A stretch of 64,000 nt of DNA from Allosphingosinicella indica. GTDB lineage: Bacteria > Pseudomonadota > Alphaproteobacteria > Sphingomonadales > Sphingomonadaceae. The position numbers and the translations under genes were made by a program. Shown here one piece after another: positions 45,583 through 58,141 of this stretch. Location of the stretch: positions 2,037,501-2,101,500 of the forward strand of contig NZ_LT840185.1 in NCBI RefSeq assembly GCF_900177405.1. The letters run 5' to 3'. The number at the start of each line of letters is the position of its first letter. Within the stretch, counting starts at the first letter, position 1. The notes beneath the pieces were generated by a model. The model was not told the origin of the DNA and made no database searches. It worked only from the letters and a program-made list of their open reading frames with translations.

Positions 45583-45648
45583 GTCATCCCCGCGAAAGCG
45601 GGGATCCATAGCACGGCACGACTGGGTTCCCGCTTTCGCGGGAATGAC
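45583..45648. repeat. Dispersed palindromic repeat, family B
   Basis: Two hairpins, CCCCGC-GAAA-GCGGGG (45588-45603) and TTCCCGC-TTTC-GCGGGAA (45627-45644), lie within an overall inverted layout GTCAT...ATGAC. It sits just after cysQ, between convergent genes, where it may also serve as a terminator. Its layout resembles family A but the sequence differs. Confidence 0.75.
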
Positions 45649-51993: not shown

Positions 51994-54009
<2,016 letters not shown>

Positions 54010-54029: not shown

Positions 54030-55844
54030 TCAGCCCGCGTCGCCTTCGACCAGCGTCGCGAGCTGCCTGTCCGCCTCATCCTTCGCCGCGCGGAGCCGCT
54101 GCTGCTCCAGAAACGCGGCTTCCTCACCGGTCTCCTTCAGCCGGGCCGTGGCGGCACCGAGCGCCGCGTCGATCCCCGGCCGCGCCGCCAGACTGTCGAT
54201 CACCAGAACGAGATCGCGTCGCGCGCGTTCCGGGTCGGCATCTCGGCGGTTGAAGGAAAAGGCCAGTCCACTGAGGCGCAGATCCTCCGCAAGAGCACCC
54301 ACGCCAGCTTGCGCCAATATGGTATTTAGCGCCTCGCTATCAAGATAGCTGTTCGCCATCGCCGCATCGATCAGCGAATCGCGCAGCCGCATGTCGTCGC
54401 GAGCGGCGAGCGGCAGCGCCGCAATGGCTTCGCTGTGCGCCGCAATCAGGTCTGGATGACGGAGCAGTCCGGCCAGCGCGGCGCGGCCGCTCACTCCGGC
54501 GAGCGAGTCCCCCGGCACGGCGCGGACAGTGCGCGGCCCTGCCGAAAAGCGACGTCCGGGGCCGCCCGGCGACCATTGCCGCTGAGGGCGGACCAGCGCG
54601 TCGTAGCGGCCGAGCAGTTCGGCGCGGTAGCGTTCGCGGACATCGCCGTCGCCGACCGTGCCGCTGAGGTCGAGCAGGCGGCGGCGAAGGCCCGCCTTCT
54701 GCTCGGGTGTGATGAGCGGCTCGGCGTCGCGCTCGTGCCGCCAGAGCCGGTCGACGAGATGCTCGGACGCGGCGAGCAATGTCTCCAGCGCGTCGCGTCC
54801 GCCGCCGCGCACCAGATCGTCGGGATCCTGGCCAGCGGGCAGGGTGATGAAGGCGAGGCTCCGTCCTGGCCCGACGTGCGGAAGCGCCCGAAGCGCGGCG
54901 CGGATCGCGGCCTTCTGCCCCGCGGCGTCGCCGTCGAAGCAGAGCAAAGGGGCAGGGGAGAGCTTCCACAGCCGCGCGAGTTGTTCCTCGGTCAGCGCGG
55001 TGCCCAGCGGGGCCACCGCCTCGCCGATCCCCGCCTGGTCGAGCGCGATCACGTCCATATAGCCTTCGACAACGATCACGCGCCCCGCAGTGCGCGATGC
55101 GGCGGCGGCGCGGTCGAGATTGTAGAGCGTCCGCCCCTTGTCGAAGAGCGGCGTGTCGGGGGAGTTGAGATATTTGGGCTCACCGGCGCCGAGGATCCGC
55201 CCGCCGAACGCGATCACGCGCCCGCGCGGATCGCGGATCGGGATCATCAGCCGCCCGCGGAACCGGTCATAGGGCTCGCGATCGTCGTCGGGCTGGATCA
55301 GCAGCCCCGCCTCGATCAGCGCCTCATTGCCGAAATCCCGTAGCGCGCTCTTGAGACGCCCGCGCGAATCGGGGGCATAGCCGATGCCGAAGGCGCGCCG
55401 CGCCGCATCGCTTATCCCGCGCCGCTCCAGATAGGCCCGCGCTTCCGCACCATCGAGCCCGCCCAACTGCTCCTCGAACCAGTTGGCCGCGGCCTCCATC
55501 ACGCCATAGAGGCCCGAGGCGCGCTCGGCACGGGCCTGCGCGCGGGGATCGGCGGCGGGGACGTCCATGCCGGCGGCGTCCGCCAGTTCCTTCACCGCAT
55601 CGATGAAGGGCAGACCGCGCTGATCGGTCATCCAGCGGATCGCATCGCCATGCGCGCCGCACCCGAAGCAATGGTAGAAACCCTTCTCGTCGTTGACCGT
55701 GAAGCTCGGCGTCTTCTCGTTATGGAACGGGCAGCACGCCTTATACTCGCGCCCCGCCCGGATGAGCTTCACCGACCGGCCGATCAATACGGATAGCAGA
55801 GTGCGCGCGCGAAGTTCGTCGAGAAAGGCGGGTGAGAGGGTCAC
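54030..55844 (-). CDS. dnaG: DNA primase DnaG
   Basis: A 604-residue primase. The CHC2 zinc finger (CCPFHNEKTPSF and FYHCFGCGAHGD), the catalytic core (RFRGRLMIPIRDPRGRVIAF) and the Toprim motif (VIVVEGYMDVIALDQAG) are present, followed by a helicase-binding C-terminal part. The start is GTG (55844) and overlaps the stop of the DUF559 gene by 4 bases, so translation may now be coupled to that gene. Confidence 0.97.
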   Translation of the reverse strand: MTLSPAFLDELRARTLLSVLIGRSVKLIRAGREYKACCPFHNEKTPSFTVNDEKGFYHCFGCGAHGDAIRWMTDQRGLPFIDAVKELADAAGMDVPAADPRAQARAERASGLYGVMEAAANWFEEQLGGLDGAEARAYLERRGISDAARRAFGIGYAPDSRGRLKSALRDFGNEALIEAGLLIQPDDDREPYDRFRGRLMIPIRDPRGRVIAFGGRILGAGEPKYLNSPDTPLFDKGRTLYNLDRAAAASRTAGRVIVVEGYMDVIALDQAGIGEAVAPLGTALTEEQLARLWKLSPAPLLCFDGDAAGQKAAIRAALRALPHVGPGRSLAFITLPAGQDPDDLVRGGGRDALETLLAASEHLVDRLWRHERDAEPLITPEQKAGLRRRLLDLSGTVGDGDVRERYRAELLGRYDALVRPQRQWSPGGPGRRFSAGPRTVRAVPGDSLAGVSGRAALAGLLRHPDLIAAHSEAIAALPLAARDDMRLRDSLIDAAMANSYLDSEALNTILAQAGVGALAEDLRLSGLAFSFNRRDADPERARRDLVLVIDSLAARPGIDAALGAATARLKETGEEAAFLEQQRLRAAKDEADRQLATLVEGDAG

Positions 55845-56254
55845 AGTCGCGCCGGACGCGCAATCGCGCTCCCCTCCCGCTCGCGGGAGGGGCTGGGGGA
55901 GGGTCTGTCCGTCAAAATCTCTGCGATCCGCACCACAACGCCATCGATATTCGCAAGCACGTCATTGTTCCAGAACCGGATGACCCGATAGCCCTGGCTT
56001 CGGAGATAGGCGGCGCGGCGAGCGTCTTCTTCCGATCGCTCCGCATGCTGCCCGCCATCGACTTCGATAATCAATCGCGCGGAGCGAGACACGAAATCGC
56101 AAATGAATGGACCGATCGGGAACTGGCGATTGAAGCGGACACCTTCAATTCGGCGAGCGGAAAGATGTCGCCAGAGCAGACGCTCGGCTTCGGTGGCGTT
56201 GGCGCGCAATTCGCGGGAGCGGGCCGTCGGGCGCTTGTATCCCTTGTCCAACAC
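55841..56254 (-). CDS. DUF559 endonuclease-like protein bracketed by REP palindromes
   Basis: A protein of the DUF559 family (restriction-endonuclease/Vsr-like fold): NATEAERLLWRHLSARRIEG, FNRQFPIGPFICDFVSRSAR, LIIEVDGGQHAE and YRVIRFWNNDVLANIDGVVV. The likely active site is the Asp/Glu set around CDF and EVDGGQH. GTG 56254 is preferred; the REP just upstream supplies a GGGGGAGGG ribosome binding site. The open frame runs to a TTG at 56278 inside the palindrome. The last ~22 residues (TDRPSPSPSREREG...) are encoded by the other REP. The stop overlaps dnaG. Confidence 0.85.
   Translation of the reverse strand: MLDKGYKRPTARSRELRANATEAERLLWRHLSARRIEGVRFNRQFPIGPFICDFVSRSARLIIEVDGGQHAERSEEDARRAAYLRSQGYRVIRFWNNDVLANIDGVVVRIAEILTDRPSPSPSREREGSAIARPARL
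55871..55911. repeat. REP palindrome, family C, left of the DUF559 gene
   Basis: CCCCTCCCGC-TC-GCGGGAGGGG (55871-55892) is a perfect 10-bp palindrome, followed by CTGGGGGAGGGTCTGTCCG. The same arrangement, with three changes in the tail, is at 57481-57521 inside carA. It lies within the 3' end of the DUF559 frame. Confidence 0.88.
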
Positions 56255-56288
56255 GCCCTCCCCCGACCCCTCCCGCAAGCGGGAGGGG
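56251..56288. repeat. REP palindrome, family C, right of the DUF559 gene
   Basis: ACACGCCCTCCCCCGA leads into CCCCTCCCGC-AA-GCGGGAGGGG (56267-56288), a perfect 10-bp palindrome. Its flank points the opposite way to the copy at 55871, so the two copies form an inverted pair around the DUF559 gene. It ends 8 bases from the YqeY stop. Confidence 0.88.
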
Positions 56289-56296
56289 AGTCTGAT

Positions 56297-56749
56297 TCAA
56301 GACAGCGCTGCTTTCACCAGGCCGCTGGCCTTGCCCATGTCCATGCTGCCGGCGTGGCGCTCTTTCACCAGCGCCATCACGCGGCCCATGTCCTTTACGG
56401 ACGCGGCGCCGGTCTCGGCGACGATGGCGGCGATCGCGGCCTTCGCCTCGTCCTCGCTCATCTGTTGCGGCAGGAAATCCTCGATCACCGCGACTTCGGC
56501 CCTCTCGGCCTCGGCAAGCTCGGCGCGGCCGCCTTTGTCGTACATCTCGATCGATTCGCGGCGCTGCTTGACCATTTTCTGCAGCACCTCGGTCACCAGC
56601 ACGTCGTCGTCCGGCTTCGCGGAGGCGGTGCGCAGCTCGATATCGCGGTTCTTGATGGCGGACTGGATGAGGCGGATGGTGGCGGTGCGGCTCTTGTCGC
56701 CGCCCTTCATGGCGGAGACCAGCGCCGCCTTGATATCGTCGCGAATCAT
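56297..56749 (-). CDS. GatB/YqeY domain protein
   Basis: A 150-residue helical protein of the GatB/YqeY family, related to the tail domain of amidotransferase subunit GatB and thought to bind tRNA. The start (IRDDIKAALVSAMKGGDKSR) and end (VKERHAGSMDMGKASGLVKA) are typical, with FLPQQMSEDEAKAAIAAIV in the middle. It normally stands directly before dnaG-rpoD; here the REP-DUF559 unit separates it from dnaG. It is divergent from carA. Confidence 0.93.
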   Translation of the reverse strand: MIRDDIKAALVSAMKGGDKSRTATIRLIQSAIKNRDIELRTASAKPDDDVLVTEVLQKMVKQRRESIEMYDKGGRAELAEAERAEVAVIEDFLPQQMSEDEAKAAIAAIVAETGAASVKDMGRVMALVKERHAGSMDMGKASGLVKAALS

Positions 56750-56893: not shown

Positions 56894-58141
56894 ATGGCCG
56901 ACGCCAAGCCTACGCCTGCGCCGAACGGAGCGACGGGCGTATTGGTATTGGCCGACGGCACAATCGTCTGGGGCAAGGGCTTCGGCGCCGAGGGCGATGC
57001 GGTGGGCGAGGTGTGCTTCAACACTGCGATGACCGGCTATCAGGAGGTGATGACCGATCCCTCCTATGCGGCGCAGATCATCACCTTCACCTTCCCGCAT
57101 ATCGGCAACGTCGGCGCGAACTATGAGGATGTCGAGGCGGACAATCCGCATGCGCTGGGCTGCATCGTCCGGCAGGACGTCACAGCGCCGAGCAACTTCC
57201 GCGCCGCCACCGGTTTCGTCGAATGGATGCGCTCCAACGGGCGGATCGGCCTCGCCGGCGTCGACACCCGCGCGCTGACCCGCCGCATCCGGCTGGCGGG
57301 CGCCCCCACCGGCGTGATCGCGCACAATGCGGGGGGCGAGTTCGACATCGACGCGCTGCTGGAAAAAGCGCGGAGCTGGCCCGGGCTGGAGGGCATGGAC
57401 CTCGCCAAAGAGGTGTCGTGCCGCCAGATGTACCGCTGGAGCGGCGGGCTGTGGAAGCTTGGCGAGGGCTATGAGGAATTCCCCTCCCGCGAGCGGGAGG
57501 GGCTAGGGGAGGGCCTGTCCGACGCCTCCACAAGCTCTCCCCCGGCCCCTCCCGCAAACGGGAGGAGAGGTGATCTCCCGCACATCGTCGCGATCGACTA
57601 CGGCTCGAAGCGCAACATCTTCCGCAACCTCGCCGATGCCGGCGCGCGGGTGACGGTGCTGCCGGCGACCGCGACCTTCGACGAGGTGATGACGCACGCG
57701 CCCGACGGCTTCTTCCTCTCCAACGGCCCCGGCGATCCCGCCGCCACGGGCGCCTATGCGGTGCCGGTGATCCGGCAGATGCTGGAGACCGGCAAGCCCC
57801 TGTTCGGCATCTGCCTCGGCCACCAGCTCCTCGGGCTTGCGGTCGGCGCGAAGACGGTGAAGATGCACCAGGGCCACCGCGGCGCGAACCATCCGGTAAA
57901 GCGGCTGGCGGACGGCCGCGTCGAGATCACCAGCATGAACCACGGCTTCGCGGTGGAGGCGGAAAGCCTGCCCGCCAATGCCAGGCCGACGCACGTGTCG
58001 TTGTTTGATGGCAGCCTCGCCGGCCTCGAACTCACCGACCGCCCCGCATTCAGCGTCCAATATCACCCCGAGGCGAGCCCCGGCCCGCAGGACAGCGTGT
58101 ATCTGTTTGGAAAATTTGTGGAAATGATCGGAGAGGAATGA
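56894..58141 (+). CDS. carA: Carbamoyl-phosphate synthase small subunit CarA with in-frame repeat insert
   Basis: CarA (415 residues from ATG 56894) supplies ammonia from glutamine to CarB for arginine and pyrimidine synthesis. The N-terminal domain (FNTAMTGYQEVMTDPSYAAQ) and the class I glutaminase domain (nucleophile in LFGICLGHQLLGLA; catalytic HPEAS) are intact. Between them, residues about 196-224 (FPSREREGLGEGLSD...) are encoded by two inverted REP palindromes at 57481-57565. This makes the protein about 30 residues longer than usual for the family. The frame is preserved. Confidence 0.96.
   Translation: MADAKPTPAPNGATGVLVLADGTIVWGKGFGAEGDAVGEVCFNTAMTGYQEVMTDPSYAAQIITFTFPHIGNVGANYEDVEADNPHALGCIVRQDVTAPSNFRAATGFVEWMRSNGRIGLAGVDTRALTRRIRLAGAPTGVIAHNAGGEFDIDALLEKARSWPGLEGMDLAKEVSCRQMYRWSGGLWKLGEGYEEFPSREREGLGEGLSDASTSSPPAPPANGRRGDLPHIVAIDYGSKRNIFRNLADAGARVTVLPATATFDEVMTHAPDGFFLSNGPGDPAATGAYAVPVIRQMLETGKPLFGICLGHQLLGLAVGAKTVKMHQGHRGANHPVKRLADGRVEITSMNHGFAVEAESLPANARPTHVSLFDGSLAGLELTDRPAFSVQYHPEASPGPQDSVYLFGKFVEMIGEE
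57481..57565. repeat. Inverted pair of family C REP palindromes inside carA
   Basis: The first palindrome CCCCTCCCGC-GA-GCGGGAGGGG (57481-57502) has the tail CTAGGGGAGGGCCTGTCCG. The second, CCTCCCG-CAAA-CGGGAGG (57548-57565), is preceded by CTCTCCCCCGGC and faces the other way. The pair has the same architecture as the two copies around the DUF559 gene but with only about 25 bases of other DNA between. Confidence 0.9.

Follow-up and report, generated by a model that had tools for sequence, protein, structure and literature searches.

The stretch of the Allosphingosinicella indica genome analysed here (NZ_LT840185.1, positions 2,037,501 to 2,101,500; 64,000 nucleotides, hereafter the window) carries on its minus strand the gene order yqeY, DUF559 gene, dnaG, rpoD. 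The DUF559 gene, which encodes a putative nuclease, lies between two inverted copies of a repetitive extragenic palindromic (REP) element, designated REP-A. The features of this unit, followed by those of its surroundings, are:

55841-56254, minus strand: DUF559 coding sequence, GTG start at 56254, 137 amino acids; PD-(D/E)XK superfamily, homing-endonuclease/Vsr-like fold.
56267-56288, minus strand: REP-A palindrome on the 5' side of the DUF559 gene, CCCCTCCCGCAAGCGGGAGGGG, 22 bases.
56256-56264, minus strand: G-rich tail GGGGGAGGG of the 5' repeat (window letters CCCTCCCCC), likely ribosome binding site.
55871-55892, plus strand: REP-A palindrome 3' of the gene, in mirror orientation to the 5' copy, CCCCTCCCGCTCGCGGGAGGGG, 22 bases.
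55895-55903, plus strand: G-rich tail GGGGGAGGG belonging to the 3' repeat and pointing towards the gene.
56297-56749, minus strand: yqeY (PF09424, E=8e-47), neighbour of the insertion.
54030-55844, minus strand: dnaG, the other neighbour, whose start overlaps the DUF559 stop by 4 bp (55841-55844).
51994-54009, minus strand: rpoD.
57482-57566, no strand assigned: gene-less REP-A doublet, belonging to the dispersed copies, within the carA reading frame; its second palindrome is mismatched.
45583-45648: CGTC-type repeat doublet, of the kind that brackets the GIY-YIG gene of this genome (L179).

Direct reading of coordinates and letters bears out the initial annotation, in which the gene was placed between inverted 22-base palindromes with mirrored flanks: the inner flanks of the two palindromes are mirror images, and both G-rich tails point to the DUF559 gene. 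One copy had been proposed to supply the ribosome binding site, a likely role, as its tail GGGGGAGGG stands one base ahead of the GTG at 56254; in several relatives with the same junction, an ATG follows the equivalent tail. This GTG is favoured as the start codon, with the upstream TTG at 56278 as a less likely possibility. The other copy had been described as encoding the C-terminal tail and running to the dnaG start. It does encode part of the C-terminus (PSPSREREG), but the palindrome stops 26 nt before the dnaG start, which is reached by the open reading frame instead. With up to 3 mismatches, the 20-base core has 4 matches in the window versus 0.30 expected, and the maximum among 100 shuffles was 3. 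The doublet within the carA frame seems to insert residues in frame.

The encoded protein matches PF04480 with E=4.8e-40 and 136.3 bits, against a curated cut-off of 20.6. Its structural model (mean pLDDT 80) was matched by Foldseek to the DUF559 protein NGO0050 (3hrl, E=3.9e-8), to the catalytic domain of the homing endonuclease I-Bth0305I (3r3p, 4.1e-5) and, more weakly, to Vsr (1cw0, 4.6e-3), and the sequence profile agreed with 3hrl (4e-37) and weakly with 3r3p (1.7e-4), with no agreement for Vsr (0.56). Residues D53, E64, D66, H70 and D77 are invariant or almost so and are predicted to be catalytic. An earlier assignment of the Escherichia coli DUF559 protein YcjD to the PD-(D/E)XK superfamily is given in the available text of PMC1189080. 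The window protein therefore resembles I-Bth0305I and Vsr in fold, and I-Bth0305I also in a weak profile match; unlike theirs, the DUF559 gene is chromosomal and palindrome-bracketed.

In the single-contig genome (2.81 Mb), the exact REP-A core CTCCCGCNNGCGGGAG occurs 33 times, and its reversed control is absent (0 copies). Twelve pairs of exact cores are spaced 67-121 bp apart, and one pair, 396 bp apart, encloses the DUF559 gene. Of the 7 exact cores that lack an exact partner, 5 have an inexact one. The flanks of REP-A form mirror-image doublets of several subtypes. The genome's other two DUF559 genes are each enclosed by an inverted pair from a second, two-hairpin family (GGGGGACC...GGTGGAGGGG). 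This family has 25 exact matches: 4 flank the two genes, 14 make up 7 doublets spaced 46-59 bp apart, and the other 7 stand alone. A DUF559 gene flanked by two-hairpin repeats (L002) stands just ahead of what looks like glyS. That DUF559 genes of this genome would be bracketed by inverted palindromes thus holds for 3/3, though for two of them the brackets belong to the second family. Both families otherwise occur mostly as short doublets, and their only exact-match pairs 200-1000 bp apart are those that enclose DUF559 genes.

The association of DUF559 genes with palindromes extends far beyond this genome and far beyond chance. Three sets of loci were compared: a genus set (108 loci), a phylum-wide sample (49) and named loci (76-79 depending on the test), the last being the best 80 of 573 confirmed candidates, of which 3 were untestable and one (L268) was dropped as an N-run artefact. 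DUF559 is present in 25 of the 26 genus genomes, at 119 places; 112 were fetched, the other 7 being fragments, a contig-end match or weak matches, and 4 of the 112 were too close to contig ends for the 200-bp flanks needed on both sides. Inverted repeats matched between the two flanks were scored at thresholds of 15 and 20, picked with the data in view, and controls were scored identically. In the genus set, 97/108 loci reach 15 and 90/108 reach 20, compared with 5/620 and 0/620 shifted positions; among neighbouring open reading frames, 13/242 reach 12 and none of the 242 reaches 15. Counted once per site, 45 of the 54 testable sites reach 20. When the upstream flank of one locus was paired with the downstream flank of another, 37/492 same-genome and 89/648 other-genome pairs reached 20, so few that the repeat ends must match locus by locus. 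The phylum-wide sample has 33/49 loci bracketed, composed of 16/29 (controls 2/115) and 17/20 (controls 1/80). Among the named loci, 66 of 77 testable reach 15, or 65/76 after removal of the artefact (controls 2/293), including loci from Chloroflexi, Desulfobacterales, Planctomycetota, Nitrospirae, Rickettsiales, and beta- and gammaproteobacteria.

The repeats at DUF559 loci share a common plan, CCCTCTCCC, a short loop, GGGAGAGGG, 2-4 nt, and GGGGTGAGGG. With at most 4 substitutions, this plan is found upstream in plus and downstream in minus orientation at 49/108, 20/49 and 50/76 loci of the three sets, compared with 0/207, 0/97 and 0/144 controls. Orientation is preferred, but the other orientation also occurs: the upstream motif is plus versus minus at 53/14 genus, 25/12 phylum-wide and 55/18 named loci, and the downstream motif is minus versus plus at 60/23, 30/17 and 67/26. 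The plan is that of the BoxC/PIT triplex motif, a dispersed intergenic repeat with a pyrimidine arm, a short loop, a purine arm, 2-4 nt and a G-rich third strand, for which no partner gene was known before. Unlike the strict E. coli consensus (CCCTCNCCC N3-6 GGGNGAGGG N3 GGGNGAGGG), the copies in the window have an extended GC stem and fit the plan rather than the strict letters; 5 strict copies lie elsewhere in the A. indica genome. Tolerant matches to the triplex motif are found at many DUF559 loci. Across 299 genomes, counted without phylogenetic correction, 42 have both the strict motif and a strong DUF559 match (E<=1e-10), 15 the motif only, 38 DUF559 only and 204 neither (odds ratio 15, p 6e-17). 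Among the matches listed, the four plus/minus motif pairs 300-600 bp apart (two in G088, one each in G184 and G248) all enclose DUF559. Four genomes (G165, G079, G224 and G287) carry 14-121 strict motif copies with no strong DUF559 match, and their partner may have been lost or may be different. As far as the accessible part of PMC4666352 (2015) goes, BoxC occurs in >260 genomes and is tied to rearrangement, with no mobility function found around the motifs.

A second nuclease family is bracketed by different repeats. Among some relatives, a GIY-YIG gene lies between copies of another repeat at the yqeY-dnaG junction, and in the genus set (30 loci fetched out of 94 places, UvrC counted in) 28/30 GIY-YIG loci are bracketed, versus 2/58 controls. 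Beyond the genus the family is mixed, with 9/29 loci of a phylum sample bracketed (controls 0/114). The triplex-type hairpin is present on both sides of 82/108, 35/49 and 68/78 DUF559 loci, and of 0/30 genus and 0/29 phylum-sample GIY-YIG loci. CGTC-type repeats, defined by the stem GTCATTCC...GGAAT with at most 2 substitutions and required on both sides of the gene, bracket 0/108, 0/49 and 0/78 DUF559 loci, versus 6/30 and 4/29 GIY-YIG loci (controls 1/58 and 1/57). The GAGC...GTCGA type is found on both sides of 1/108, 0/49 and 1/78 DUF559 loci, versus 14/30 genus and 1/29 phylum-sample GIY-YIG loci; its controls were 10/211 in the DUF559 genus set and 1/58 in the GIY-YIG genus set. The CGTC REPs published from alphaproteobacteria are therefore like the repeats that bracket some small GIY-YIG genes, and unlike those of DUF559, since they flank both sides of no DUF559 locus tested. 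According to the portion of PMC3733652 (2013) at hand, CGTC REP doublets have no dedicated transposase, and the paper closes on the question of their enzyme. At six of the 30 genus GIY-YIG loci, both neighbours are the same as at a DUF559 locus; 5 of these six lie at yqeY-dnaG. The GIY-YIG gene of A. indica (L179, with CGTC-type brackets) and a DUF559 gene of genome G020 (L070) likewise have both neighbours in common, which points to a second place where the two families replace each other.

Within DUF559, the repeat type tracks the nuclease lineage and not the host genome. For 92 loci at different sites, protein identity correlates with repeat similarity (Spearman 0.47, Mantel p 0.001), and mean repeat similarity is 0.291 between loci within one genome and 0.303 between loci of different genomes. 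This co-divergence, together with the cross-specificity of repeat types, suggests that the DUF559 protein recognises its own repeat. The same results bear on a more conventional explanation, an ordinary Vsr-like repair nuclease whose palindromes would be retained for expression control, as ribosome binding site, terminator or operator. The tail probably does serve as a ribosome binding site, and the DUF559-domain protein VsrA of Caulobacter is DNA-damage-induced, according to the available text of PMC12907096. Regulation, however, leaves unexplained the dispersed gene-less doublets, the 3' mirror copy, the match between repeat and lineage, and the same plan around GIY-YIG genes, and triplex motifs had neither promoter nor terminator activity in earlier work cited in the accessible part of PMC4666352. 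We therefore regard a purely regulatory role as unlikely.

It might also be supposed that the repeats are REPs driven by a REP-associated tyrosine transposase (RAYT), with the DUF559 gene as a passenger. Y1 transposase genes are present in 11/26 genus genomes, and inverted repeats flank 4/6 Y1 loci (score >=15 in 400-bp flanks, without controls). However, no match to the Y1 family PF01797 was found in the A. indica genome, nor a Y1 gene in 14 other genus genomes, some of them REP-A-rich (G011, G022, G004); the triplex-type hairpin flanks both sides of 0/6 Y1 loci, and no GTAG tag stands at the palindrome foot in the window repeats, read directly, or in the copies elsewhere in this genome. A RAYT was rejected as the driver on the missing PF01797 match and the 0/6 count, and the passenger explanation is highly improbable. 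Four of the Y1 genes (L158, L159, L160 and L162) have inverted repeats of their own, which are not of the triplex type.

The history of the unit can be read from the yqeY-dnaG junction in the 25 genus genomes with a yqeY match. YqeY and dnaG are compactly joined in 4/25 (G006, G013, G020 and G021), with 24-34 bp between the yqeY stop and the conserved FLDELR motif near the N-terminus of DnaG, which confirms that the unit is inserted, as first proposed. The comparison of junctions with and without the unit, suggested at the outset, found both states: besides the 4 compact junctions, 9/25 hold a bracketed DUF559 gene, 5/25 a GIY-YIG gene, 2 a lone REP-A with a GIY-YIG gene, 1 REP-A with half a copy of the GIY-YIG-associated repeat, 1 REP-A only, and 2 other arrangements. 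The remaining junction, in G008 (L132), holds by eye a decayed DUF559 gene with worn palindromes, and every genus genome except G008 has a DUF559 match. Lone REP-A copies without a nuclease gene stand at yqeY-dnaG in G017 (L148) and G018 (L134), and are probably remnants of a lost unit. Sister species differ at this junction, with DUF559 in G002 and GIY-YIG in G025. The same junction holds DUF559 in 14/79 named loci, including loci from Sphingopyxis, Novosphingobium, Sphingobium and Sphingomonas. Neither outcome that would have spoken against a link to the palindromes was seen, as relatives with DUF559 at this junction carry the palindromes and the association exceeds chance (97/108 vs 5/620).

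Overall, the 112 genus loci fall into at most 58 sites, an upper bound as some neighbours are hidden at contig ends. In a tree of 109 proteins, the nine yqeY-dnaG copies of the genus lie within one 19-row branch (96/88). Two large sites, s0 and s5, each form an exclusive clade; s1 (yqeY-dnaG), s2 and s4 occupy one branch each, shared with 10, 8 and 1 copies from other sites, and s3 needs two changes. For 57 of the 70 copies at shared sites, the nearest relative is a same-site copy, and the highest identity between copies at different sites is 0.80. The mixing in the tree, with no identity above 80% between sites, indicates that moves between sites happened long ago. In 7 pairs of relatives, several of which have dS close to 1 or higher, the ratio of nonsynonymous to synonymous substitution rates (dN/dS) lies at 0.09-0.16, so that the DUF559 gene is under purifying selection. 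The unit is thus an old insertion, vertically inherited with losses and replacements, and not recently jumping. Of the initial annotation's two alternatives, a REP-associated mobile nuclease or a domesticated one, the association with REPs stands and the domesticated version fits better, while current mobility is not supported by the identities of at most 80% and the single 19-row branch.

This history bears on two kinds of mobile element. The unit could be a selfish homing cassette, in which the nuclease cuts unoccupied intergenic sites and homologous repair then copies it in, DUF559 and GIY-YIG competing for places. Among solved structures of known function, the homing endonuclease I-Bth0305I is closest in fold; sister species have DUF559, GIY-YIG, remnants or nothing at the junction, and the shared neighbours of the six GIY-YIG loci fit such competition. 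Known homing, however, does not depend on terminal palindromes or scatter doublets, and the same-site affinity of 57/70 copies shows no frequent arrival from elsewhere; we judge a homing cassette to be rather improbable. Alternatively, the unit could be an actively transposing element like an insertion sequence with short inverted ends. Matched inverted ends at 97/108 loci, up to 58 sites for 112 loci and compact empty sites would suit such an element, and the ten other-site copies in the yqeY-dnaG branch argue that it has moved at some time. Against it stand the limit of 80% identity between different-site copies, a nuclease fold instead of a transposase and the lack of a recognised target duplication, which make it very unlikely; recent transposition was rejected on the first of these.

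DUF559 loci in other species show variations of the arrangement. The DUF559 gene of E. coli, ycjD, lies between sapF and fabI and is found in 3365/5426 genomes; it is like the window unit in standing next to triplex-motif copies and in its variable presence, and unlike it in having a 5' side without a copy. No triplex motif was found in the ycjD-less strain L359, read from sapF to fabI, or on the sapF side of three other ycjD-less strains, except that two of them show a weak hairpin match within sapC. In the examined strains without ycjD, its place is held by an efflux operon (cf. the available text of PMC12817139), so that E. coli provides no clean empty site. In Azospirillum, a chromid-borne DUF559 gene (L352, L353) adjoins a gene matched to prfA by blastn. 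The region is present in 7/7 matched Azospirillum records, which makes a comparison of polymorphism within the species uninformative. In Neisseria gonorrhoeae (L354), there is an upstream copy, and downstream lies a tandem array of triplex-type motifs with a period of ~281 bp.

Taken together, we consider it probable (roughly 60%) that the window holds a resident nuclease-REPIN system, in which a DUF559 gene persists inside its own repeat pair, gene-less doublets are dispersed through the genome, and the repeat variant is matched to the nuclease lineage. By analogy, it may be likened to a domesticated RAYT with its REPINs, built on an unrelated homing-endonuclease/Vsr-like enzyme. According to the accessible text of PMC8049555, RAYTs are single-copy, vertically inherited genes that replicate REPINs at very low rates. 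Like RAYT-REPIN systems and REPtrons, the system described here has an enzyme gene between inverted REPs and dispersed gene-less inverted doublets, and its gene is mostly vertical with a repeat matched to the enzyme. Unlike them, DUF559 is not a Y1/HUH tyrosine transposase, the repeats lack the GTAG tag, and several nuclease lineages can share a genome; for want of a Y1 enzyme and the tag, it is not a member of the RAYT-REPIN group.

Several observations weigh against a resident nuclease-REPIN system. Eleven of the 108 genus loci score below 15, and bracketing reaches just 33/49 in the phylum-wide sample. The reverse orientation occurs at 14, 12 and 18 loci upstream (minus) and at 23, 17 and 26 loci downstream (plus) in the three sets. 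Strong DUF559 matches are missing from 15/57 strict-motif genomes, and the strict motif from 38/80 strong-DUF559 genomes. The 3' end of ycjD is overlapped by a worn motif copy, with a full copy downstream and none upstream; the Azospirillum gene has both repeat copies upstream, and the copies nearest to the N. gonorrhoeae gene on its two sides share orientation. Hairpin folding of the repeats in the window gives modest z-scores of -0.8 to -1.8. The yqeY-dnaG branch includes ten copies from other sites, and no recent move was seen among copies at different sites, all at most 80% identical. No target duplication was recognised by eye at interspecies junctions, which are too diverged for base-level alignment. 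Finally, G002 has retained its bracket, yet its whole genome contains one other exact core.

Under the resident-system interpretation, the DUF559 nuclease would recognise its own repeat, possibly folded into a hairpin or triplex while the DNA is single-stranded or being replicated, and would nick or cut it. Repair or template switching could then, at very low frequency, place copies of doublets elsewhere in the genome; moves of the gene itself would be rare, and it would persist inside one doublet. The cutting and spreading of repeats by DUF559 are proposed by analogy with RAYTs. More tentatively, and with somewhat less than even confidence, orphan palindromic repeats may generally be nuclease-driven, DUF559 with the C-rich BoxC/triplex-motif REPs in many phyla and small GIY-YIG nucleases with CGTC and GAGC...GTCGA repeats. 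Such systems would be replicators parallel to RAYT-REPINs, would have originated independently on at least two nuclease folds and would compete for shared intergenic sites.

Among the titles listed by searches of the open-licence literature, we found no published link between DUF559 or GIY-YIG genes and these repeats. BoxC/triplex motifs and CGTC REPs were both published without an enzyme, and the gene-level association across phyla now names candidate partners for them, one of which, YcjD, is in E. coli K-12. If nuclease-driven repeats are confirmed, a nuclease acting on its repeats could explain the frequent rearrangement of triplex-motif loci, and the RAYT-REPIN way of life would have evolved more than once.

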